DNA of 64,000 nucleotides. It comes from Fructilactobacillus lindneri DSM 20690 = JCM 11027 (GTDB taxonomy: Bacteria; Bacillota; Bacilli; Lactobacillales; Lactobacillaceae). The translations under genes were made by a program, and so were the position numbers. The notes under the pieces were generated by a model, which saw only the letters and a program-made list of their open reading frames with translations, did no database searches and was not told the DNA's origin. The stretch covers positions 62,001 through 126,000 of the forward strand of contig NZ_MIYK01000010.1 in the NCBI RefSeq assembly GCF_002907375.1, read 5' to 3'. This document shows positions 7,445 through 29,261 of this stretch, piece after piece. Within the stretch, counting starts at the first letter, position 1, and every line of letters begins with the position of its first letter.

Positions 7445-7473
7445 TTGACTAATATTTTATAACATGTTTAAAT
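7445..7473 (+). promoter_or_regulatory. Candidate promoter of the Cys-leader operon
   Basis: TTGACT at 7445-7450 as -35, then a 17-base spacer and TTAAAT at 7468-7473 as -10 (4 of 6 matches). A second possible -10, TATAAT at 7425-7430, has only a weak -35. Either would give a leader transcript that includes the small ORF at 7510. Confidence 0.4.
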
Positions 7474-7509
7474 ATTATTAACATTTAATTAAGAGAGGAG
7501 GAAGAATTA

Positions 7510-7569
7510 ATGACTACTTTTATGAACGCTTATCAATCAAACTGCTGCTGTACTTGTTGCATGATATAG
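7510..7569 (+). CDS. Cys-rich leader peptide, 19 residues
   Basis: The ORF reads MTTFMNAYQSNCCCTCCMI and stop. It has a very strong ribosome binding site (GAGGAGGAA, with GGAGG at 7497-7501) eight bases before the ATG. Five of six consecutive codons 12-17 are Cys (TGC TGC TGT, ACT, TGT TGC), a density that chance does not explain and that is the hallmark of amino-acid-sensing leader peptides. It is followed by a chain of alternative RNA stems and a terminator (7592-7782), then a cystine-type binding-protein gene. The likely role is ribosome-mediated sensing of Cys-tRNA supply; the peptide itself need not have a function. A metal-binding role for the peptide is a less likely alternative. Confidence 0.75.
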   Translation: MTTFMNAYQSNCCCTCCMI

Positions 7570-7591
7570 GGAGCGTTCGTAAACTTGTTTG

Positions 7592-7673
7592 GATACGGAT
7601 GTTGCCACATCTGTATCTAAGTGGAGTAGTTGTCATATCCGGTTAGATACAACTTGATTGTTAGTCTAGCTGG
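7592..7673 (+). promoter_or_regulatory. Alternative RNA stems of a probable cysteine attenuator
   Basis: Four segments can pair with their neighbours in turn. A (7592-7602) pairs 11 bp with B (7607-7617). B extended (7612-7624) pairs with C (7639-7651), 13 positions with one mismatch. C (7639-7648) pairs 10 bp, with G-U pairs, with D (7664-7673). D (7661-7673) pairs 13 bp with E (7743-7755), which is the 5' arm of the terminator. So A:B plus C:D leaves the terminator free to form, while B:C plus D:E prevents it. The leader coding region also pairs with the following bases (7522-7530 with 7572-7580). How ribosome position chooses between these is not resolved by eye. Confidence 0.65.
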
Positions 7674-7736
7674 GATTGTATGTTAAAAGTGTTTTTAACA
7701 TACTTTAATTCTTTTTCTGAATTACGTTTAGAAAAT

Positions 7737-7785
7737 AAAAAGCCAGTTAGACTAATGATTGTTAGTTTAACTGGCTTTTTTGTTT
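7737..7785 (+). terminator. Attenuator terminator before the cystine-binding-protein gene
   Basis: Stem AGCCAGTTAGACTAA (7741-7755) / TTAGTTTAACTGGCT (7762-7776), 15 bp with one G-U pair and a 6-base loop, followed by TTTTTTGTTTT. The 3' arm is almost a copy of segment D at 7661-7673, so D and the 3' arm compete for the 5' arm. It lies 35 bases before the start of the transporter gene, as expected for an attenuator. Confidence 0.85.
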
Positions 7786-7819
7786 TCTTGAATTTAATAA
7801 TCAGATTGGAGTAGAAAAA

Positions 7820-8593
7820 ATGAAGAAAAAATTACCATTAATTTTAATGCTGGGTTTGATCACATTGGTTTTAGCTGCTTGTGGGAATCAAAACTCAGAG
7901 ACTAAAGAAAAAGGAACTTTAACGATTGGATTAGAAGGAACATATCCTCCATATGCTTATCGCCAAAATGGAAAATTAACTGGTTTTGAAGTTGAATTGG
8001 CAAAAGACACTGCTAAAAAAATGGGTCTAAAACCTAAGTTTGTGACGACTGGCTGGGATTCTTTAATTCAAGGAATCAACTCACAAAGTTACGATGTAGT
8101 TTTTAATAATTTGGCAGAAAATCCAAAACGTAAAAAGCAGTTTAGATTTTCAAAACCATATGCATATTCTAAAGCAATTATTATTACTAAAAAAGATTCG
8201 CCAATTAAAAATTATAAAGACCTAAAGGGTAAAAAAGTAGCCGAGGGAACTGGAACTGATAATTGGAATAACGCTGTTAAACTAGGAGCTAAGCCGGTTG
8301 CTTCACCAGAGTTTCAAACTTCGATGGATATGATTGATGATGGACGGGTTCAAGCAGCAGTTAATTCCAAAGAAGATTTTGTTTATTGGCAAAAAAATCA
8401 TCCCAAAACTGATTTAACTTATCAAGTAATTCCTAGTAATGTGATTACTCCTGCTGCAATTGCTCCAATGATGAATAAAAATTCGAAAGAATTAAACCAA
8501 AAAATGAATAAAGCATTAGATGAAGAACGACGCGATGGAACTATGAAACGTTTGTCAATCAAGTACTTTGGAACTGACATTACGAACAAGTAG
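7820..8593 (+). CDS. Amino-acid ABC transporter substrate-binding lipoprotein, likely cystine
   Basis: The N-terminus is a lipoprotein signal with lipobox LAAC (Cys about residue 21), so the protein is anchored outside the membrane. The mature part is a family-3 solute-binding protein: GLEGTYPPYAYRQNGKLTGFEVELAK, then DSLIQGINSQSYDVVFNN, then FSKPYAYSKAIIIT and a C-terminal lobe with GRVQAAVNSKED. The GTYPP-type ligand loop resembles the TcyA/cystine-binding group. Cystine as ligand is inferred from this resemblance and from the Cys-codon leader upstream. The ribosome binding site is weak (TTGGAG). No ABC permease or ATPase gene follows; the next gene is another binding protein. Confidence 0.85.
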   Translation: MKKKLPLILMLGLITLVLAACGNQNSETKEKGTLTIGLEGTYPPYAYRQNGKLTGFEVELAKDTAKKMGLKPKFVTTGWDSLIQGINSQSYDVVFNNLAENPKRKKQFRFSKPYAYSKAIIITKKDSPIKNYKDLKGKKVAEGTGTDNWNNAVKLGAKPVASPEFQTSMDMIDDGRVQAAVNSKEDFVYWQKNHPKTDLTYQVIPSNVITPAAIAPMMNKNSKELNQKMNKALDEERRDGTMKRLSIKYFGTDITNK

Positions 8594-8612: not shown

Positions 8613-9482
8613 ATGAAAAAATTTTGGAAATGGGCTGCTGGGATTGTAGTGGTTTTAGCAATCGGATTTGGTTTTTATCACACATTTATTGGTAATCACC
8701 AAGAAAATAATAGTTCTAAAACCATTACGATTGGTTCTTATGGTCCAGATACTGAAGTTTGGGAACACATTGCTAAATTACCAGAAACGAAAAAAGCTGG
8801 TCTTAATTTAAAAGTACAAGATTTTTCTGATGGAGTTTCACTAAATAAAGCTACATTGAATGGGGAAGTTGACGTAAATGCCTTTCAAATGTATGGATAT
8901 TTGAAATATTTTAACAATGAAAGTAAAAATGGCAAACTTGCTCCTTTAGGAACCACTTATCTAGAACCAATGGGAATTTATTCTAAGCGTTACAAATCTG
9001 TAAAAGATCTGCCAAAAGGTGCAACAATTGCGATTTCTAGTAATCCTGCCAACACTTCACGAAGCTTAAAATTATTACAAAGTGCTGGTTTGATTAAGTT
9101 AAAAGGCAAGCCAAACGGTGGTTTGTATAAGCCGGAAAATGTTGCTGATAATCATAAAGATTTGAAATTTCAAGAAGTTGATGATCACACTGGACCACGT
9201 TTGTTAAATGATAAAAATGTAGCCGCTGTGGTGATTGGTAATACGATGGCCTTACAAAGTCATTTGAACGTTAAACACGATTCGATTTATCATGAAAAGA
9301 TGGATCAATCTACTAAGAACAACATTAACGTCTTAGCAACCAACGAGAAAAATAAGAATAATCCGCAATACAAAAAACTAGTTAAGCTCTATCATAGTAA
9401 AGCCGCACAAGATTACATCAATAAGAAATTTAAAGGAACTAAGATTGATGTTGATAAGCCAGTTAGTTATTTGGAAAATTAA
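8613..9482 (+). CDS. MetQ/NlpA-family substrate-binding protein
   Basis: The protein starts MKKFWKWAAGIVVVLAIGFGFY, a membrane anchor or uncleaved signal without a lipobox cysteine, which is unusual for this family but seen in lactobacilli. The mature part has the NlpA layout: TIGSYGPDTEVWEHIAKL, EVDVNAFQMYGYLKYFN, LAPLGTTYLEPMGIYS, then AISSNPANTSRSLKLL and DDHTGPRLLNDKNVAAVVIGNT. Family members bind D/L-methionine or related sulfur amino acids for MetNI transporters. It follows the cystine-type binding protein by 19 bases with AAAGGAGA, so the two are one operon under the same leader. The partner ATPase and permease must be encoded elsewhere. Confidence 0.87.
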   Translation: MKKFWKWAAGIVVVLAIGFGFYHTFIGNHQENNSSKTITIGSYGPDTEVWEHIAKLPETKKAGLNLKVQDFSDGVSLNKATLNGEVDVNAFQMYGYLKYFNNESKNGKLAPLGTTYLEPMGIYSKRYKSVKDLPKGATIAISSNPANTSRSLKLLQSAGLIKLKGKPNGGLYKPENVADNHKDLKFQEVDDHTGPRLLNDKNVAAVVIGNTMALQSHLNVKHDSIYHEKMDQSTKNNINVLATNEKNKNNPQYKKLVKLYHSKAAQDYINKKFKGTKIDVDKPVSYLEN

Positions 9483-9501
9483 ACAATAAGGGATGATAAA
9501 A

Positions 9502-10218
9502 ATGAAGATTGGGATTACGGCTAATGTGAATCTAAAAAATCCAGATGATATCAATTTGAATTTTTCTAATTACACGGCGCGTGTTTTTTTACAATTGTTA
9601 ACAGCACATGAGATAATGCCGCTTATTATTCCAGTGGTGCCATCGTCCTTAATAAAAGAATATGTTGATTTGGTTGATGGAGTTTTAATTCCAGGCGGGC
9701 AAGACGTTGATCCAGAATTATTTCATGAAAAACCAATTTCAGAATTAGGAAAAACTTATCAGCCTCATGATCAACTGGAAATGCAGGTATTACAAGAAGC
9801 AATCAGACAACACAAACCAGTCTTCGGAATTTGTCGCGGGTATCAAGTAATTAATGTCGCTTTGGGCGGAATTTTGTATCAGGATTTAACCACTCAAATA
9901 ACTAGTAAAACCTTAAAACACAATCAGCCAGAAGAGATTGCAACAGCAACTCATACAGTTCAAGTAGCCGAGAATAGCAACTTAGCAAAAGCGGTTGGAG
10001 TCCGCCCAACCGTTAATTCCAAGCATCACCAAGGAATTAAGCAGGTTGCTCCGGGATTACGAGCAGTTGCACGAGCAGATGATGGAGTGATTGAAGCGAT
10101 TGAAAATGAAGACGCCAGTGTAGCAGGGGTGCAATGGCATCCAGAATATTTGTGGCAGCATGATGCCATTCAAGAACAGTTATTTTTAGATTTCTTTCAA
10201 CGAGTAAAAAATGGTTAA
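9502..10218 (+). CDS. Gamma-glutamyl peptidase, peptidase C26 family
   Basis: Class I glutamine-amidotransferase-like hydrolase of the PuuD/C26 group. The nucleophile elbow FGICRGYQVINVALGG (Cys about residue 110) and the C-terminal catalytic His/Glu block VAGVQWHPEYLW are both present; the start is GITANVNL, and VDGVLIPGGQDVDPELF is typical of the family. These enzymes cut gamma-glutamyl amide bonds, for example in gamma-glutamyl-GABA. As third gene of a Cys-leader operon with sulfur amino-acid binding proteins, release of cysteine from gamma-glutamylcysteine or glutathione-derived peptides is an attractive inference. I start at the ATG at 9502 because AAGGGA is well spaced for it and too close to the ATG at 9493. 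Confidence 0.85.
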   Translation: MKIGITANVNLKNPDDINLNFSNYTARVFLQLLTAHEIMPLIIPVVPSSLIKEYVDLVDGVLIPGGQDVDPELFHEKPISELGKTYQPHDQLEMQVLQEAIRQHKPVFGICRGYQVINVALGGILYQDLTTQITSKTLKHNQPEEIATATHTVQVAENSNLAKAVGVRPTVNSKHHQGIKQVAPGLRAVARADDGVIEAIENEDASVAGVQWHPEYLWQHDAIQEQLFLDFFQRVKNG

Positions 10219-15303: not shown

Positions 15304-18300
15304 TTATTTAGTTTCTTTTTTATTTTTGAAACCATTTAATCCAAAGATTCCGAAAACTGAAAGTAAGATTGCACCAATTATACTTAATAAACGATTATCT
15401 TTGCTTTGACCAGTTTGTGGTAAAGTAGTTGTTTTATTAGTTTTATGCGTTGCTGTTTCATTTACTGAACTTGTAGAGGTAGAAATAATAGTTTCAGTTA
15501 CAGTCTTTGGTAAATTATTATTACTAGTAGTTACAGTTTTATTAGTTTGACCATCATGGTCTGATGAAAGGACGTGATGCATATTTCCATCAGTTTCTGT
15601 AGTTTCAGGTGTTACTTCACTAGTTTGATTATGAGATTTAGTTGAAGTACTAGTTCCTTTACTATCAGTCGAAGTCTTTGGTTCAGAGGGAGTCTGCGAA
15701 CCATGTTCTTCATTGTTGGTTGGTTTTGTAGGTTCATAAGGCGTCTGTGAACTATTACCATCGTTATTTGTAGGAGTGGTTGGCTCGGAAGGAGTCGAAT
15801 TCTTACTATAAACGATTTGAATTGTCTTAGTTCCTGGTTCAAAAATGCCACTTACCATAATTTGCTTTGCCGTGTATCCTGCAACTATCGGGCTGACAAT
15901 ATTGTACTGACTGTTAATGTCTCCACTTTCTATTGCGGAATCAGCTAGTTTATTTCCATTCTCGTCAACGTAGTTAATTATTACTTGACCAGTCTTAACA
16001 GGAGTTTCGTCTTTAGCAATAATAACAGTAACGATTTGATTCATATTAGCGTTAAAAGTATAACTTTCAGGACCAGTTACATAGTGATAACCATTAGGAA
16101 CACTAGCTAGAGTATTTCTTTGATTGCCATATTTACCATTAATTTGTGTACTTGAAATAATAAGTCCATCACTTGTTGTGTAATTTATGGTAGCTGTTTC
16201 ATCATTAGCAGTATAAGTAACAATTTTATCGTTATTCTTGCCAGCAGTAAGATTGTCAGTGACGATTTGTTCGTCAGCAGTATAACCTGTAATTGATGGT
16301 GAATCAATGCTTACGTTAATAGTTGCTGGAGACCAATCATTCCAGGCAACATTTCCAGTTACTTGATCTTTAGTTCCACTTCTAGAGAAATCAACTTGCT
16401 TAGTAACTGTATCAGCAGTAGCTTTTCCATCATCGTATTGATAATGGACAGTTAACGATCCAGTTGTTGAATCATTTACTTGTTCGGTAGCGTGCTTAAA
16501 GCGAACTGAATAAGTTGGTATTTCGCCATCAAAGTCAAAGATATTAGGGACATTTGAACTTACATATTGATAACCTTGATTTTCTAAGTTTTTGATTTCA
16601 GCAGCAACTGTCGATTTATCAACTGCTTGGCCATATTTACCGGTTAAGGCAGTATCAGCTACACCATCAATTGTTTTTCCAGTTGTATCATCAATGTACT
16701 GAACTTTGGCTGTTTCATCATTGGCGGTGTAAATAACAATAATTGTTTCGTTTTGTCCCGCTGTTAGAGAAGTGGAAACAGTTTGTGGGTTAGGTTTATA
16801 TCCTTTAATGATAGGAGAATTGACACTAACGCTTGTTGTTGCTGGAGACCATTCACCATAGCTAATTACAGCTCCAGTTGTATCGTCAACAACATTAGTA
16901 CGTTGAAAAGTTGCGGATTTGGTTACAGTAGTTGCTGCAGTCGTGCCATCTGAATATTGATATTCAACGTTAACTAATCCAGTCCCGGTTTCGGTAACAG
17001 TTTTAGTTCCTTTAACAGTTACTACACAAGTAAAGGTTTTATAATACCATTTGTTACCTTGATAAGCATAATTGGGACTACCGTACCAGTTATAAATAAC
17101 GTTGTATTTACCTGGTGTAGTTCTCAAGATATCTTCATTAACTTGTTTTCCATTTTCAGTTTCATATTGAACTGTTAATATTCCGTCTGAAATGGCTTGT
17201 TGGATTTGTTCTTTATTTATCGTTTGAGAACCATCTGGATTGGTTAATGATTTAATTTCATCTTCAGGAGTCCAATTCTTAGCTTTTTCAGAATTGGCAT
17301 ACCAAGCATCAGTGGGTTTTCCATCTATTGCAATTAAATCAACTGCCCAAACCCAAGTTCCTGCATGAGACTGTCTGTCCGTTAAAGTATAAGCGTTTAA
17401 ACTTTGACCATTAGGGGAATAGTTATCACTATATGTGATATATGGGGCACTAGGCAACTCACCTGTACCAAGTTCTTGCCATAAACCAGAAGCAGTCAAA
17501 TCAATTGTTGGTGGGATAAGTGTTCCAGTCACAATGTCAGTTAAACCAACTGTATTATTTAATATTGTATCTTTACCTAAAATTAGTTGCCATAATCCAA
17601 AGCTAACAATATTTTGGTTGTCATCATAAGTTAATACAACTGTGTTCCCTAGCATATTGGTCATATCAGTTACGTTACGAGTATTAAAATTACTTAAATT
17701 TAGAGAATTTAATAAATTATCAGTAAAAAACATCTCTTTCATATTAGTAACTTTATCGGTATTAAAATTTTCCAAATTTAAATTAGGAACATAAACAAAT
17801 TTAAACATAGCTTCCATATTAATAACGTTTTCTGTATTGAAATTACTTACATTTAAATTATCTAATAACTGGTCTCCATTAAACATAAATGACATATCAG
17901 TAACATTATGGGTATCCAGTTCTTCAATTCCTGTAATTTTTGTAAGTCCTATACGTGGGATATTAGGACCATCAAAGGGACTTCCGGAAGTAAATAAACC
18001 ACAAAACATATAACTCATATTTGTAACATTGCCAGTATTTTTGCCAAACTTTCCGCCTACGTTTAAATATTCCAAACTACCACAACTTTGAAAAATTCTG
18101 CTCATACTGGTGACCTTACTAGTATCCCAGTTGCTAACATCTAGATTTGTAAGTTTATAATCGTTATAGAACATAGCATTCATATTTGTGACAGCACTTG
18201 AATCAAATTTATCCAAACCATTAATAGAAGTTAAGACAGGTAATGTCGTAAACAAATTAGAACTATCTGATGGCAATTTTATTTGTGCGTTAACGTCAAT

Positions 18301-19386
18301 TTCTTTAACATTTTGCACAATTTTTTGATTGGTAAATGGACTACCTGTTTCATCTCTTGTTCCAAGAGTACCAGAAGTATTGAGACTTAATTTATTGTTT
18401 TCATTATCGTATGACCAGTTGACAGTTCCCCAGGTTCCAGTTAAAGCATCAGTATTATTAGGGTTTTCAGCTGCCAAAAATACATTTTTATTTCTTTGGT
18501 CGTCAGCACTCACATCAGTATTAGCAATGTTGATATTTGTTGGTGTAGTAATCTTTAAAGCATCATTAGGAAGATTATTATCATTTTCAACCGCAGTTGC
18601 ATCAGCTTCTGGTTGGCTATTAGTTGTACTTTTAGTAGTCTGGTCACTATTGTTACGTTGATTGTTTTCAGTTGAGGTAGTAATTGGAGCATTGGGAATT
18701 ACATTTGCTTGGTCATTATTAGTTATAACTGGAGTTGGATTAACAGGAACTTGTTTAGAAGTCTCACCCGTTTGATTAGAAGCAGTAGTGTCAGTAGTTG
18801 CTTTAGCAGATTGGCTGCTTTCTGCTTGCACTTTGTCATTTGGTAAATTATTTTTTGAATCTTTATTTACGTCAGGAGTGTTAATTGGCTGTTTTTGATT
18901 ATTTTGATTTGACTCATAAGCTTTAACTTGCTGATCATTTGAAATTTCGCTAGGTTGAGTAACCTCTTTATTTTCAGTATCATCCTGCGAATTGGATTGT
19001 TTAGTAGTAATACTTGAGTCGGGATTGGTTAACTTATTATTTTCAGAAGCATCAGGATCAGGTGTAGTTGTAGCAACATCCTTTTGATTTAATTCAGTTA
19101 TTTTATTATTGTTTGAGTTTTGCGGTTTGTCATTGTTATTAGCTTCATCATTTTTAATCGTTGTAGTTGATTGATCGGTTGTATTATTGCTGGTAGTTTG
19201 TAGTTTATCATTACTATTTTGATTATCGGCAGCGACTATAGTATTATCACTAGCACTTACATTTGGACTTATGATTAAACCAGTTCCGACTGCTAAAGTA
19301 GCAATTGAAGAAAAAAACCAGAATTTGCCAGCTTTATACATTTTGTAATGTAATCTAGTTTCATCCTTTTTTTGTTTTCTTAACAT
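15304..19386 (-). CDS. LPXTG-anchored surface protein with BspA-type repeats and mucin-binding-type domains
   Basis: The 1360-residue protein begins with a KxYKxGKxW signal (YKMYKAGKFWFF, near residues 15-26) and a hydrophobic stretch ending VSASD. Residues about 50-310 are low-complexity, rich in Asn, Thr, Gln and Ser. About 325-615 hold DUF285/BspA-like repeats (VTNMNAMFYNDYKLTNLDVS and several N-V-T-x-M-x-x-M-F variants). About 840-1190 hold Mub-B2/MucBP-like repeats, including two long units ending in ATxxVSIxSPxIxGY. A Ser/Thr/Pro-rich stalk leads to LPQTG at 1322-1326, a membrane segment and KNKKETK. Sortase would link it to peptidoglycan; adhesion to mucus or cells is the usual role. 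GGAGG precedes the ATG. It is a single-gene unit. Confidence 0.9.
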   Translation of the reverse strand: MLRKQKKDETRLHYKMYKAGKFWFFSSIATLAVGTGLIISPNVSASDNTIVAADNQNSNDKLQTTSNNTTDQSTTTIKNDEANNNDKPQNSNNNKITELNQKDVATTTPDPDASENNKLTNPDSSITTKQSNSQDDTENKEVTQPSEISNDQQVKAYESNQNNQKQPINTPDVNKDSKNNLPNDKVQAESSQSAKATTDTTASNQTGETSKQVPVNPTPVITNNDQANVIPNAPITTSTENNQRNNSDQTTKSTTNSQPEADATAVENDNNLPNDALKITTPTNINIANTDVSADDQRNKNVFLAAENPNNTDALTGTWGTVNWSYDNENNKLSLNTSGTLGTRDETGSPFTNQKIVQNVKEIDVNAQIKLPSDSSNLFTTLPVLTSINGLDKFDSSAVTNMNAMFYNDYKLTNLDVSNWDTSKVTSMSRIFQSCGSLEYLNVGGKFGKNTGNVTNMSYMFCGLFTSGSPFDGPNIPRIGLTKITGIEELDTHNVTDMSFMFNGDQLLDNLNVSNFNTENVINMEAMFKFVYVPNLNLENFNTDKVTNMKEMFFTDNLLNSLNLSNFNTRNVTDMTNMLGNTVVLTYDDNQNIVSFGLWQLILGKDTILNNTVGLTDIVTGTLIPPTIDLTASGLWQELGTGELPSAPYITYSDNYSPNGQSLNAYTLTDRQSHAGTWVWAVDLIAIDGKPTDAWYANSEKAKNWTPEDEIKSLTNPDGSQTINKEQIQQAISDGILTVQYETENGKQVNEDILRTTPGKYNVIYNWYGSPNYAYQGNKWYYKTFTCVVTVKGTKTVTETGTGLVNVEYQYSDGTTAATTVTKSATFQRTNVVDDTTGAVISYGEWSPATTSVSVNSPIIKGYKPNPQTVSTSLTAGQNETIIVIYTANDETAKVQYIDDTTGKTIDGVADTALTGKYGQAVDKSTVAAEIKNLENQGYQYVSSNVPNIFDFDGEIPTYSVRFKHATEQVNDSTTGSLTVHYQYDDGKATADTVTKQVDFSRSGTKDQVTGNVAWNDWSPATINVSIDSPSITGYTADEQIVTDNLTAGKNNDKIVTYTANDETATINYTTSDGLIISSTQINGKYGNQRNTLASVPNGYHYVTGPESYTFNANMNQIVTVIIAKDETPVKTGQVIINYVDENGNKLADSAIESGDINSQYNIVSPIVAGYTAKQIMVSGIFEPGTKTIQIVYSKNSTPSEPTTPTNNDGNSSQTPYEPTKPTNNEEHGSQTPSEPKTSTDSKGTSTSTKSHNQTSEVTPETTETDGNMHHVLSSDHDGQTNKTVTTSNNNLPKTVTETIISTSTSSVNETATHKTNKTTTLPQTGQSKDNRLLSIIGAILLSVFGIFGLNGFKNKKETK

Positions 19387-25139: not shown

Positions 25140-25736
25140 TTAATAATTATTATTTTTATAAAATATTCCTGTTTTATAATCTATTGTAAATCCTGGTTGA
25201 TTATTATAAATAAAACAATCTTTTTCTACCATTGGGATGTCGTTGTACATTACTTGTATAAAAATCCCTTTAGCAACTAAATCATTTTTACACTGATAAT
25301 AAAGATTAACGCTATATATAATTTTATTGTTATTTTCAAGTTCCTTAGTAATTCCATCTTCTATATGTTTCATTACATTCAAATTGCTGTTGGATGTTTG
25401 AGTAAAAATGTTTTTACGATTATCCCACGTACCCGTTTTTCCATTTTCATAATTACCATTATCATTAATGTTATTTAGAAAATGAAATGCAATTATATGA
25501 CCTCTATTATAAAATTTTTGTTTATAATTTATGTGTCCATTTTGCCATCCAGATGGCTTATATTTTGAAGTTCTTCTTTTTTTATAAAGTAAATTATCTT
25601 TTGTTAAATAGGCTGTGGCACCTCTGGGTCGATTAAATTTATCTAATTCTTTAAAATCTACGTATCCCTTTTTTAAGTTTTTACATTTTAAATGCGTATA
25701 CAAGTTTTCTTTTTTCATCAAATCAACAAAATCCAT
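25140..25736 (-). CDS. DNA/RNA non-specific endonuclease-like protein, no signal peptide
   Basis: The 198-residue protein matches the beta-beta-alpha metal nuclease family (NucA/EndA/streptodornase type): RPRGATAYLTKDNL, then PSGWQNG, then YNRGHIIAFHF (a DRGH-type motif with Asn in place of Asp and the general-base His kept), then TWDNRKNIFTQTSNSNLNVM with the metal-binding Asn. Most relatives are secreted, but this one has no signal peptide. The gene overlaps the YafQ-like toxin stop by 14 bases; the ATG at 25736 has TGAGG upstream, while the TTG at 25748 does not. So it belongs to the toxin-antitoxin operon. Its cytosolic location suggests a nucleic-acid-targeting effector or phage defence; this is inference. 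A strong terminator follows. Confidence 0.75.
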   Translation of the reverse strand: MDFVDLMKKENLYTHLKCKNLKKGYVDFKELDKFNRPRGATAYLTKDNLLYKKRRTSKYKPSGWQNGHINYKQKFYNRGHIIAFHFLNNINDNGNYENGKTGTWDNRKNIFTQTSNSNLNVMKHIEDGITKELENNNKIIYSVNLYYQCKNDLVAKGIFIQVMYNDIPMVEKDCFIYNNQPGFTIDYKTGIFYKNNNY

Positions 25737-25995
25737 TTTGAACCTCAATTCTAGTTAAAATAAGAATCAAATTATGATTTTCCACTTTATATAACAATAA
25801 CCAATCTGATTGAATATGCAACTCATAATATTCTTTTAAATTACCACTTAACTTATGGGCTTTTAATTGCTTTAATTTATTATTATCTTGTTTAGTAATA
25901 GCTGTAATTGCAATCTGAAACTTTTCCATATCAAAATGTTTTCGCTTGATTTTCTTTAAGTCTCTTTCAAATTGTTTTGTAACTTTTACTTTCAA
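25723..25995 (-). CDS. YafQ/RelE-type mRNA interferase toxin
   Basis: 90 residues, the usual size. KVTKQFERDLKKIKRKHFDM at the start, then QLKAHKLSGNLKEYYELHI, then SDWLLLYKVENHNLILILTRI are the conserved blocks of the YafQ group, in which the WLL-Y strand and C-terminal strand carry the ribosome-dependent RNase activity. The toxin cuts mRNA at the ribosomal A site when antitoxin is lost. Its ATG overlaps the antitoxin stop by four bases, so translation is coupled. The catalytic C-terminal region in YafQ normally contains a His before the last strand; here the sequence LILTRIEVQNGFC lacks it, so activity may differ. The nuclease gene overlaps its end. Confidence 0.85.
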   Translation of the reverse strand: MKVKVTKQFERDLKKIKRKHFDMEKFQIAITAITKQDNNKLKQLKAHKLSGNLKEYYELHIQSDWLLLYKVENHNLILILTRIEVQNGFC

Positions 25996-26258
25996 AGGTT
26001 ATCTACCCATTCCATAACTTCATCAACACTATTACCAATATATTTAGTTGTACCTTCTCTAACATCACTATTTGCTTGATCTGTTTTAATTTTATTAATA
26101 GACGTTTCAACATGTAAGGAATTAGTCATAACAGATTGTTGCAAAAACATATTAATAGCTGTACTCATATCTAATCCTAAAGCATTATAAATATGGTTAG
26201 CTTTTTCTTTTATTTTAGGATCAACTCTAACTGCAATAGTAGCTGTTTTTGCTCCCAT
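25992..26258 (-). CDS. RelB/DinJ-type antitoxin
   Basis: 88 residues. The N-terminal ribbon-helix-helix is ATIAVRVDPKIKEKANHIYNALGLDMSTAINMFLQQSV, which is the standard RelB/DinJ DNA-binding and dimerisation domain; the C-terminal half is polar and flexible and ends VMEWVDNL, as toxin-binding tails do. It neutralises the toxin encoded next and represses the operon. AAAGGG precedes the ATG with good spacing. A 24-base imperfect palindrome at 26280-26303 is a possible operator. The operon continues through the toxin into the nuclease gene. Confidence 0.88.
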   Translation of the reverse strand: MGAKTATIAVRVDPKIKEKANHIYNALGLDMSTAINMFLQQSVMTNSLHVETSINKIKTDQANSDVREGTTKYIGNSVDEVMEWVDNL

Positions 26259-26279
26259 ATCATTTACCCTTTTTTAACG

Positions 26280-26303
26280 TTTGTATAACTTATTGTGTAC
26301 AAA
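26280..26303. promoter_or_regulatory. Possible operator of the toxin-antitoxin operon
   Basis: TTTGTA (26280-26285) and its complement TACAAA (26298-26303) form an inverted repeat 22 bases upstream of the antitoxin start, and GTATAAC occurs twice nearby. Ribbon-helix-helix antitoxins bind such sites. Confidence is limited because no known site is available for comparison. Confidence 0.35.
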
Positions 26304-26343
26304 GTATAACAAAATTTCATAATATCAACATAAATATTTATAG

Positions 26344-26386
26344 TACAAAAAAACAGTTGAAATATAAAAAAATTCAACTGCTTTTG
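26344..26386 (-). terminator. Terminator of the methylase gene
   Basis: CAGTTGAA / TTCAACTG with an AT loop, followed by TTTTTTTGTAC on the minus strand. It lies beyond the repeat at 26488, which is consistent with its being the original terminator of guaA before insertion of the cassette. The remaining gap (26387-26559) holds only the guaA-like repeat and no gene. Confidence 0.6.
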
Positions 26387-26487
26387 CCTTATAAAGGTCC
26401 ACTTAAACTAATTTACTTAACTTAATGCCTATGTAAATGCTTTAAAAGCGCTGTATTCTAGGGAATGTATTTATTAGTTACTATCCA

Positions 26488-26506
26488 TATTCAATCGTTG
26501 CTGGTG
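26488..26506. repeat. Direct repeat of the guaA 3' end, candidate attachment site
   Basis: TATTCAATCGTTGCTGGTG here is identical over 19 bases to 29269-29287 inside the last codons of guaA. Read on the minus strand the copy gives KSPATIEYG and a stop, against KPPATIEYE at the end of GuaA. Outside these bases no similarity to guaA continues. This is the pattern left by site-specific integration into the 3' end of guaA, which is a documented integration target for genomic islands. Confidence 0.75.
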
Positions 26507-26559
26507 ATTTAAAAATAGCTCGAAATAAACTTACAATCTGTCATATTTTAAAATAACAA

Positions 26560-27453
26560 TTATAATCTTTTTAATATTTTAATTTTCGATGTTTCACAGA
26601 TATCTATATTATTAGATAATGCTAAAAATTCTACGGCTTTACGATGAGTTTTCATTTTATATTGTAATGTATACATATATTTATTATTTGAAAAATCATA
26701 TAAATTTATTAAATCAGGAACAGAATCATATGTTAAAACCCAATTAGTTTTTAATTTATTTATTTTTTTTGCTATAATTTCATGTTCTTTCATTGATTTA
26801 ATGGGTAAATACAATCTTTTACCTTGATTAACATATGGGGGATCAATAAATATTAATGTTTCTTTATCTGTGAAATTTTCAATTAAATTTAGAAAGGTTT
26901 TTTTAGAACTTATAATATCGATATTTTTAACAGAAATTTCATTAGAATATTTTCCAATTTCTTCTATTAAAGGACGCAGTCTGCTTTTATTATATTCATA
27001 ATTAATTTTCCATTTTCCATTTTGTTTCATTCCACCAACAGGTGTTGCTCCTCTTAGTATGCCTGAAAAATTTGTTCTATTTAAAAAAAATGTTGAAAAA
27101 CCTAAGTCTAATAGTTCAAAGTCATTTAGGTTATGTTTATTTTCAAGGTTATTGAATATATCTTTTTGCTTTTTCCATTCATTTATGTTTATTTCTGTAT
27201 TGTCAAATTTTTTTAAAAATTTTTTATTATATTTGGTAATTGAAATCCAAAATGAATATATTGCCAAATCTAAATCATTTAGTGTAATATGTTTTACTTT
27301 TTTATTTAGTAATAAATATATACCAATTCCTGCTCCACCTGCAAATGGTTCAACATAGTTATTAATATTATATTTAGAAACAATATCTTCAATAAGTGGT
27401 GCTAATTTTAGTTTTCCTCCTGGGTATCGTAAAGGAGATCTCCATGGACTCAA
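26560..27453 (-). CDS. D12-class N6-adenine DNA methyltransferase
   Basis: 297 residues with the order of the Dam/D12 alpha group: PWRSPLRYPGGKLKLAP (AdoMet-site region at the N-terminus), EPFAGGAGIGIYLL (motif I), NDLDLAIYSFWISI, TFFLNRTNFSGILRGATPVGG, and FIDPPYVNQG (motif IV, DPPY). It transfers methyl groups to adenine in a short recognition sequence. A TTG at 27453 is the best start because CAGGGGG lies seven bases before it and there is no ATG in frame nearby. It follows the AIPR gene by 22 bases. A genomic Dam would be expected to stand in a housekeeping setting; here it pairs with a nuclease-like gene in an insertion, so a restriction-modification partner is likely. Confidence 0.9.
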   Translation of the reverse strand: MSPWRSPLRYPGGKLKLAPLIEDIVSKYNINNYVEPFAGGAGIGIYLLLNKKVKHITLNDLDLAIYSFWISITKYNKKFLKKFDNTEININEWKKQKDIFNNLENKHNLNDFELLDLGFSTFFLNRTNFSGILRGATPVGGMKQNGKWKINYEYNKSRLRPLIEEIGKYSNEISVKNIDIISSKKTFLNLIENFTDKETLIFIDPPYVNQGKRLYLPIKSMKEHEIIAKKINKLKTNWVLTYDSVPDLINLYDFSNNKYMYTLQYKMKTHRKAVEFLALSNNIDICETSKIKILKRL

Positions 27454-27475
27454 AACTTCACCCCCTGATTTTAAG

Positions 27476-29227
27476 TTAATTATGTTGTTTTTCTTTTACT
27501 TTTTTAATTTCTTCAATTAAGTCATCGGAAAAGTATTTTTTAGATGTAAGTTCATTAGAATTAATATTACTTCCAGCTACTTTATCAATTATATCAATCA
27601 TTTTTTGCATTAAATTTTTACATCTTTCATTATCCCATAAAATCTTATTAATCTTATTACATTCACGTTCGGTTTCTTTTGAAGAAGAAGGTTTTTTGAT
27701 ATTTCCAGTTATATAAAAGTTAATCATGAACAGTATAAAATATTTAAATTTTGCATATTTTCTTTCAAAAATTGAATTTCGAATATAAAAATTATACTTA
27801 TAAAGTGCGTAAGAAGATGTGTAAAAAGCAATTTTAGGATTTTTAATATCAAAGACTTTTTCAGAAAAGTCTTTATAGAGTCTTCCATAGTATCTACTTG
27901 CATAGTGAGGAATTCCTAGGAACATTGAACTATAAGAACGTAAGGCAATAGCCATTGGGACAATTCTCACCTTTTCAAGGCCTTCACTGGAATTATATTG
28001 ATTTGATCTACGCTCATAAAATAATCTTTTATTTTTATCATCTTTAAAAGTATTAAAGTATGACTCTAACTCTTTTTGTACCTCTGTTAAAGCAAGTAAT
28101 GATTCCTCTTTAACAGCAGTTTGTCTATTATTACTAATTGTTATTTTTGTAGAAATAGATGGACTAGTTGGTACAATAATCTTTACAGGAACGTATATAT
28201 TAGAATTTTCATTTATTTTATCTCTATTTTGATACATAACGTAAGATGTTTGACAACCATTGACAATCTGGTAGTTTTCAAGTACTAAATCACTTCGAAC
28301 AGTTTTTGCATTATCTGCAACAATGGTTATTCCATTATTTAAAATAGACATGTCTTCAGGGTTATCAGAATTTATTGTTTCCTTAATCGCATTGTTTGTT
28401 TTTGTTTCTCCTTGGAAGTCTCTAACATTATCGTAAAAAAGTGATCGACGTAAATCTCCATTATCATCAACAATTAGTTTAATTAATTCTTTACCATTTA
28501 AAAATCCAAGCCAACCGTCTTTAACACCTGATACATCTGGTATTACTACTTTTTTATCAAAATTTATTTGTTTTTTTACTTTTGAATTAGATTCCTTAAA
28601 ATATTCTCTTAGTTGTGATGCGTCGATAGGTTTAAATTCGAAATTGTCAAAAACATTTAAATTATCGATTTCACTTTTTATATTAGAAATTTTAGATTTT
28701 AAATTTTTATCCTCTTGGAACCATTTTCCTGTAGTTACATAATATGCTCGTCCTTTAAATTCATTGACTGAAGAACTAAAATTATTTATTATTTCATTTG
28801 TCATTTCCCATTTTTCTTTAAGTTCGTTATTTTGAATTAGGGATGGTTTTTCTTTTAGAATATCAGATATACCATCGCCAAAAGTTCTCATTTTGCTTCC
28901 TTCAAACTTTGGGCTTATCTTAGATTGTATTAAAATCATAAGTATATTTAGCTTTTGATTTTTGTTAGCTAAAATATCATCTAATTCTTGTTTGTTATTA
29001 ATGAATTCACCATTTATTAGGAAACCTACAGTATCTATACCGCCATCGTTTCCACCATCAATTATCATGTTATCGATATCATCATAACTAAAATCATTAT
29101 CCATTAGTTTAGAAATTATACAATACGTTGAAAATGATTCAAATAATGACTCTTCACTCAAAGAATTTTTTAATTCCATTTTTTCTTTAAATTGGTTCAT
29201 TAAGCTTTTAATTATTCTATTATTCAA
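27476..29227 (-). CDS. AIPR (abortive infection phage resistance) family protein with nuclease-like N-terminus
   Basis: About 583 residues. The central and C-terminal part matches AIPR proteins: LRRSLFYDNVRDFQGETKTN, then SILNNGITIVADNAKTVRSD, QIVNGCQTSYVMYQNRD, then ITISNNRQTAVKEESLLAL and FYERRSNQYN. The N-terminal part has GGNDGGIDTVGFLING followed by ILMILIQSK, fitting a PD-(D/E)xK nuclease core (Asp, then QxK in place of ExK). I start at the TTG ending at 29227 since GGAGG lies five bases before it; the TTG at 29239 overlaps GGAGG. It begins only 34 bases after guaA with no terminator between, so it can be read from the guaBA promoter. A phage-defence or restriction role is inferred. Confidence 0.8.
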   Translation of the reverse strand: MNNRIIKSLMNQFKEKMELKNSLSEESLFESFSTYCIISKLMDNDFSYDDIDNMIIDGGNDGGIDTVGFLINGEFINNKQELDDILANKNQKLNILMILIQSKISPKFEGSKMRTFGDGISDILKEKPSLIQNNELKEKWEMTNEIINNFSSSVNEFKGRAYYVTTGKWFQEDKNLKSKISNIKSEIDNLNVFDNFEFKPIDASQLREYFKESNSKVKKQINFDKKVVIPDVSGVKDGWLGFLNGKELIKLIVDDNGDLRRSLFYDNVRDFQGETKTNNAIKETINSDNPEDMSILNNGITIVADNAKTVRSDLVLENYQIVNGCQTSYVMYQNRDKINENSNIYVPVKIIVPTSPSISTKITISNNRQTAVKEESLLALTEVQKELESYFNTFKDDKNKRLFYERRSNQYNSSEGLEKVRIVPMAIALRSYSSMFLGIPHYASRYYGRLYKDFSEKVFDIKNPKIAFYTSSYALYKYNFYIRNSIFERKYAKFKYFILFMINFYITGNIKKPSSSKETERECNKINKILWDNERCKNLMQKMIDIIDKVAGSNINSNELTSKKYFSDDLIEEIKKVKEKQHN

Positions 29228-29261
29228 AAAGACCTCCAATAATAATCACTATTTTTAAAGT

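Follow-up and report, generated by a model that had tools for sequence, protein, structure and literature searches.

In E. coli and Salmonella, the his (segments A-F) and trp operons are preceded by attenuators in which a leader ORF is followed by a domino of exclusive stems and a terminator, with stalling of the ribosome resulting in antitermination. In the Bacillota, the control of amino acid metabolism is usually ascribed to T-boxes and proteins. Leader-peptide attenuators that have been described from the Firmicutes include those of hisS/hisZ (PMC2965389), his (PMC9413887) and the ilv genes of S. aureus (PMC5794164), and a Leu/phe leader, RF01743, is listed for Lactococcus (PMC2864571). 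With regard to cysteine, Actinobacteria contain Cys-rich leader ORFs ahead of cys operons that lack conserved terminator hairpins (PMC1262725), a system for which a mycobacterial follow-up exists, and in the Rhodobacterales ribosome-mediated attenuation with a terminator has been proposed for uORFC-8-2, a leader with two Cys codons located before cysS (PMC8632094).

Here we describe a locus of Fructilactobacillus lindneri, found within a 64-kb window (the whole stretch of DNA that was analyzed), that very probably functions as a ribosome-mediated transcription attenuator, regulating an operon for the uptake of sulfur amino acids in response to charged tRNA-Cys; this conclusion was reached without expression data. 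Like the his and trp attenuators it has clustered regulatory codons in a leader ORF, exclusive stems, an intrinsic terminator and a predicted antitermination upon stalling. It differs from them in having an extra segment pair (S1-S8), in the placement of S2 immediately behind the stop codon, in an additional helix between the regulatory codons and a segment 3' of S4 and in the residues that are read, and there is no Rfam match of the locus to the his or trp leaders or to any other Rfam family. The Firmicutes attenuators share the leader peptide and terminator but involve other residues and genes, with no match to RF01743 at the attenuator loci. The actinobacterial and mycobacterial Cys ORFs are also short with runs of Cys codons; in contrast, the present leader has a strong SD and a strong intrinsic terminator, and so does not meet the "no conserved terminator" criterion of that system, while uORFC-8-2 has two stems and belongs to another phylum and another gene. 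In the open literature, neither this family nor any Cys attenuator of lactobacilli was found to have been described (subscription papers lay mostly outside the search). We thus regard the locus as a known class of mechanism on a new scaffold and in a new variant; the scaffold appears to be undescribed, as do its distribution and its re-specification in nature. The features of the locus are as follows.

7445-7473, + strand: likely promoter (TTGACT, 17 nt, TTAAAT), assigned by eye and absent from the list of a strict promoter scan
7496-7501, + strand: SD of the leader ORF (AGGAGG), 8 nt before the ATG
7510-7569, + strand: leader peptide ORF, MTTFMNAYQSNCCCTCCMI, with Cys codons at 7543-7551 and 7555-7560
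7519-7530, + strand: S1, which pairs with S2 (7572-7583) and is covered when a ribosome occupies the first two Cys codons
~7541-7556, + strand: L, the Cys-codon stretch, which pairs and covaries with L' (7618-7633; duplex -15.6 kcal/mol)
7572-7581, + strand: S2, directly 3' of the leader stop, partner of S3 (7594-7603) and masked by a terminating ribosome
7590-7603, + strand: S3, partner of S2 or S4
7607-7620, + strand: S4, partner of S3 or S5
7618-7633, + strand: L', partner of the leader Cys codons
7639-7651, + strand: S5, partner of S4 or S6
7660-7673, + strand: S6, partner of S5 or S7
7737-7756, + strand: S7, 5' arm of the terminator, partner of S8 or S6
7761-7781, + strand: S8, 3' arm of the terminator plus T tail, partner of S7
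7820-8593, + strand: gene 1, amino-acid binding lipoprotein (SBP_bac_3), closest to a cystine ABC binding protein among NCBIfam models and to 2yln among PDB sequences
8613-9482, + strand: gene 2, MetQ/NlpA-family binding lipoprotein, profile match under the curated MetQ cut-off
9493-10218, + strand: likely third operon gene, Peptidase_C26 / gamma-glutamyl hydrolase-like amidotransferase

The first-pass annotation had proposed a 19-residue ORF with a very strong ribosome binding site and a Cys cluster, and this reading holds: the AGGAGG is in place, and Cys accounts for five of the 19 residues before the stop, its codons filling five of six consecutive positions (7543-7560). Cys makes up only 0.28% of the residues in the 15 proteins of the window, a frequency at which the probability of at least five Cys in 18 codons is ~1.5e-9. 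Of the ORFs of 10-40 codons in the window, only 16 start with an ATG behind an SD, and the runner-up has 2 Cys. A second TGY-run in the same genome was found to lie inside a ribosomal-protein gene and was rejected. One hallmark of an attenuator, a translatable leader ORF with clustered codons of a single amino acid, is present and is conserved in four species.

The first downstream gene matches the NCBIfam cystine binding model at E 8e-46, which is under the curated cut-off, and no permease or ATPase gene is present beside the two binding-protein genes. The putative substrates of the proteins encoded by 7820-8593 and 8613-9482, cystine and methionine, are inferred, as is the extent of the operon, with 9493-10218 assigned to it from a 10-nt spacing. 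Elsewhere in the window, inspection by eye revealed a methylase-like gene, a 587-aa gene and a nuclease-like gene (25140-29239, - strand) that are perhaps a restriction/defence locus, as well as a large, repeat-rich LPXTG-type surface protein (15304-19386, - strand).

The RNA from 7500 to 7790 folds at -108.5 kcal/mol as compared to -59.4 +/- 4.4 for dinucleotide shuffles (z -11). A terminator before the structural genes and mutually exclusive stem sets between it and the ORF had both been recognized in the first-pass annotation, and both are confirmed. The intrinsic terminator occupies 7737-7780 with its T tail, shuffles of the region yielding 0.1 on average, and it forms one set together with S3:S4 (7590-7602/7607-7619) and S5:S6 (7639-7647/7665-7673). 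The other set consists of S4:S5 (7612-7620/7643-7651), which excludes S3:S4 and S5:S6, and S6:S7 (7660-7673/7743-7756), which excludes the terminator. A pairing between the leader and a downstream segment that had been suggested as a possible switch also exists (7519-7530 with 7572-7583); an equivalent of this S1:S2 helix (9 bp) can be seen by eye in F. fructivorans, with its conservation elsewhere not clear. Two pairings had gone unnoticed. One is the conserved pairing of the Cys-codon stretch (~7541-7556) with 7618-7633, and the other is the pairing of 7572-7581 with a second partner, 7594-7603, which closes the gap in the earlier scheme.

Absence of conserved Cys codons and stems in relatives had been named as an outcome that would refute the proposal, and the locus passes this test in three other Fructilactobacillus species. 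By DNA similarity of the whole leader, it is recognizable in only 3 of the 9 congeners searched, with Cys-type leaders present in Fructilactobacillus fructivorans DSM 20203, F. sanfranciscensis DSM 20451 and Lactobacillus sp. S2-2 (leader peptides MTMITTNYQNTCCCCTCYM, MTNEKNLLKAAYCTCTR and MTKLNFKIQLACCCTCYML). An exact pattern scan across genomes returned the same three species plus one chance match, a Zixiibacteriota record. A short pattern allowing two mismatches matched almost all genomes, about as often as its reversed control did, and was useless for this reason. The Cys/Thr cores of the four species (CCCTCC, CCCCTC, CTC and CCCTC) occur at an equivalent place, and a promoter counterpart (TTGACA-17-TTTAAT) occupies an equivalent position in the relatives. 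The 3' neighbours in the three relatives are an M20 amidohydrolase plus a MetQ-like protein, the end of a contig, and an SDF-family symporter. From the known TcyP family, we presume as a guess that the SDF-family symporter is a cystine carrier.

A covariance model built from the four Cys-type RNAs detected 51 of 398 Lactobacillaceae genomes at E <=0.5, the weakest of which are not all real. A second model (R2), built from 44 members, detected at E <=0.01 a total of 189 of the 398 Lactobacillaceae genomes, which represent 30 of 40 genera, and across the Lactobacillales 123 of 325 genomes, from 45 of the 77 genera sampled; its E-values are rough and a few weak matches are false. Among the weak matches that were rejected, L176 is a T-box, and no leader ORF is visible in G418 and L177. 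Most homologues have leaders that end in Phe/Tyr-rich stretches, for example NYYFGFAYFR and FYNFAYFQ, and precede MFS transporters with aroC, aroA, tyrA, aroK, chorismate mutase or aroE, gene names that were mostly assigned by eye from sequence. At ~60 further loci, an SD-led leader of the aromatic type (YYFSYFR, FAFSFFFR and similar) is almost always present, followed by genes for aroE, DAHP synthase or PF04392 binding proteins; two loci (one read closely) have Ile-rich leaders before a PALP enzyme that looks like a putative threonine dehydratase. One Met-type leader, MLNNQSYSNNACCMSTMAYMSMPMCMHI, precedes a MetQ-like lipoprotein gene. The residues of the leader fit the pathway in relatives, with Phe/Tyr before aro genes, Ile before the PALP enzyme and Met before MetQ; for the aromatic relatives the correspondence with the downstream genes is clear. 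The genome of F. lindneri itself contains two paralogous copies; one, MIISDWLHNTKHNLARLNANYYSFAWFM, lies before MFS-aroC-(unidentified 181-aa ORF)-aroA-tyrA-aroK, and the other, an Ile/Phe/Val/Leu copy, MTNKTTFQNNKIIIFFVLM, lies before a PanE-like gene and an aminotransferase (L079:12760-14006, C18). The PanE-like reductase gene is interrupted by an in-frame TAG. Judging by these comparisons of sequence, the Cys switch belongs to a Lactobacillales family reading mostly Phe/Tyr, within which it is a lineage-specific member with re-specified codons.

There are two additional observations on the aromatic members. Phe-rich leaders (NNQFAFSFFFR) occur before PF04392 ABC transporters in several genera (L129, L130, L141-L144), which suggests that phenylalanine or another aromatic compound is carried. 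The attenuator also occurs in two close copies within single aro clusters (L061/L089 of G247, and in G386, G326 and G402).

A common architecture is observed in 43 members, each of which has a leader ORF (SD-led by scan, with ATG in 41), S2 directly behind the leader stop codon, a distance of 9-19 nt from the stop codon to S3, and a terminator with a T tail. The stems had been put forward for a covariation check, and all of the helices covary. When cognate segments were compared with segments swapped between the 43 members, the cognate pair was better for seven helices, with 0 of 5000 permutations matching it. The cognate and swapped means (kcal/mol) were -15.1 and -10.8 for L:L', -14.9 and -9.4 for 2:3, -17.8 and -12.9 for 3:4, -9.4 and -7.1 for 4:5, -13.0 and -8.5 for 5:6, -15.4 and -10.8 for 6:7, and -21.5 and -12.3 for 7:8. 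In 51 divergent representatives, the five testable helices (L:L', 2:3, 3:4, 4:5 and 5:6) were at z -9.6 to -15. These permutations leave the relatedness of members in. Column counts for helices 3:4 and 5:6 gave double changes in 22 of 26 pairs and 90% paired cells, with a covariation of 0.437 against 0.237 when shuffled that collapsed on a one-column slide; the column alignment used was fitted to the model. For L:L' an independent indication comes from a simple codon rule. A leader GCT is matched by AAGC (14 cases) or AAGT (4), and ACT by AAGT (6), with the unpaired combination ACT/AAGC having zero occurrences among the pairs compared. The rule is valid between the Cys and aromatic types and within the Fructilactobacillus aromatic type. 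A further hallmark of an attenuator, mutually exclusive antiterminator and terminator stems, is present in the form of seven covarying helices in two exclusive sets.

The mechanism that we propose is a his-type cascade plus one additional segment pair. When Cys-tRNA is ample, the ribosome would reach the leader stop codon and cover S2, such that S3:S4, S5:S6 and the S7:S8 terminator would form and the operon would be off. When Cys-tRNA is scarce, the ribosome would pause on the first of the Cys codons, so that S1 and L would be covered but S2 would be free. S2:S3, S4:S5 and S6:S7 could then form, S7 would be kept from S8, and RNA polymerase would read through. In an untranslated leader, S1:S2 (at this locus) and L:L' would favour S3:S4 and the terminator. 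The expression response, the last steps of the cascade and the role of L:L' are all inferred.

Folding with a ribosome footprint from -17 to +12 of the A-site shows, in the model, a first switch that depends on ribosome position. With the transcript complete to S3, S2:S3 formed in 43 of 43 members if the first regulated codon was occupied by the ribosome, as opposed to 0 of 43 if the stop was. At the S5 stage of the F. lindneri locus, a ribosome at Cys12 or Cys13 gave S2:S3 plus S4:S5, and a ribosome at the stop, or none (where S1:S2 assists), gave S3:S4. In F. fructivorans, S2:S3 formed only when the ribosome sat at the first two Cys codons. Since S2 is free upon stalling and masked at the stop, the sign that the first-pass annotation had left open is fixed, and its inference that low Cys-tRNA raises expression agrees with the folding test, there being no read-through data. 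The unsolved link between ribosome position and the first RNA segment is likewise largely answered by the location of S2 behind the stop; what could not be reproduced is propagation to the terminator. At equilibrium, S3:S4 outcompetes S2:S3 in most members once S4 is complete, and folding to the end of S7 separates ribosome positions poorly because S6:S7 or S5:S6 dominates. A crude frozen-helix co-transcriptional model of the 43 members failed to transmit the influence of the ribosome as far as the terminator, which formed in 32 of 43 when stalled and 36 of 43 at the stop, with the F. lindneri locus undetermined. Given this equilibrium preference and failed propagation, the cascade must be kinetic, with the order of transcription being important, as it is for attenuators already known.

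It is unlikely, but not beyond consideration, that the same parts work with the opposite sign, with a Cys-stalled ribosome favouring the terminator and the operon being on when cysteine is plentiful. This is what the parity of three stems alone predicts, and equilibrium folding with the ribosome at Cys14-17 does give S3:S4 at this locus. However, starved ribosomes would halt first at Cys12/13, where S2:S3 and S4:S5 form, and a ribosome at the stop abolishes S2:S3 in every member. Additionally, uptake genes that are active in times of plenty make little sense, and the Phe/Tyr relatives control biosynthesis.

Clusters of Cys are able to bind metal or react, so the Cys-rich peptide itself could be the active element, for instance by sensing redox state or metal or by stalling the ribosome through its sequence in the manner of an arrest peptide. 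Only this general knowledge speaks for such a role, which we consider quite improbable, as homologous RNAs have Phe/Tyr, Met or Ile at this place in accordance with the pathway of the next gene, and the four Cys peptides retain a Cys-Thr-Cys core and are dissimilar outside of the codon cluster.

A third possibility arises from the Rfam label of an enterococcal homologue, RF02863 (Enterococcus sRNA 2410), under which the RNA would be a trans-acting small RNA. The F. lindneri window itself is below the RF02863 gathering cut-off and has no match, but enterococcal members found with R2 exceed it, with 7 loci matching in one search and 4 in another. The loci at which RF02863 coincides with the aromatic attenuator (L168:541-745; L162-L167, L169, L173, L174, L178) lie ahead of aroE or PF04392 transporter genes. 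The entry originates from a 195-nt E. faecium transcript detected by RNA-seq and Northern blot, and the available passages of that paper make no mention of a leader peptide or attenuation (PMC5593968). However, a terminated leader would yield an identical transcript, which is most simply what the 195-nt RNA is. Nearly every examined member lies just 5' of a same-strand gene of fitting function, and a conserved ORF is contained within the RNA, leaving very little room for a trans-acting role. RF02863 is filed as an sRNA gene, in contrast to the cis leader with an ORF described here, and should probably be re-annotated as a cis-acting leader. Finally, a T-box or metabolite riboswitch can be virtually dismissed, for although T-boxes are common in this genome (23 matches), none of the 23 is at the locus, which has no RF00230 or other Rfam match and contains a conserved translated ORF instead.

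The Cys specificity of this attenuator may be traceable to small changes. In a codon alignment, the aromatic TTT GCT TAT (Phe Ala Tyr) stands against TGT ACT TGT (Cys Thr Cys), with one base differing per codon. A tree built from 86 leaders unites the Cys, Met and Ile/Phe/Val/Leu types in a single group (96/79) that lies among the aromatic leaders; as this tree is based on 142 columns with little resolution and an arbitrary root, only its broad pattern is used. The best reading is that there was apparently one change from aromatic specificity in or near Fructilactobacillus, and those Ile leaders that occur outside the family would have arisen through a change of their own. We somewhat favour the view that an ancestral Lactobacillales Phe/Tyr attenuator has served as a re-programmable scaffold, whose codons were re-specified for Cys, Met, Ile or Ile/Phe/Val/Leu while L' underwent compensating substitutions, and which was relocated before matching operons, sometimes within one genome. 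The family offers a natural series in which attenuator specificity is shifted by single-base codon changes while RNA pairing is preserved by compensation. It would also correct an Rfam sRNA entry, and its leader codons predict the substrates of many transporters. More broadly, an order-wide set of largely unannotated leader-peptide attenuators, present in approximately half of the sampled Lactobacillaceae genomes, alters the T-box and protein picture of amino acid control in the Bacillota.
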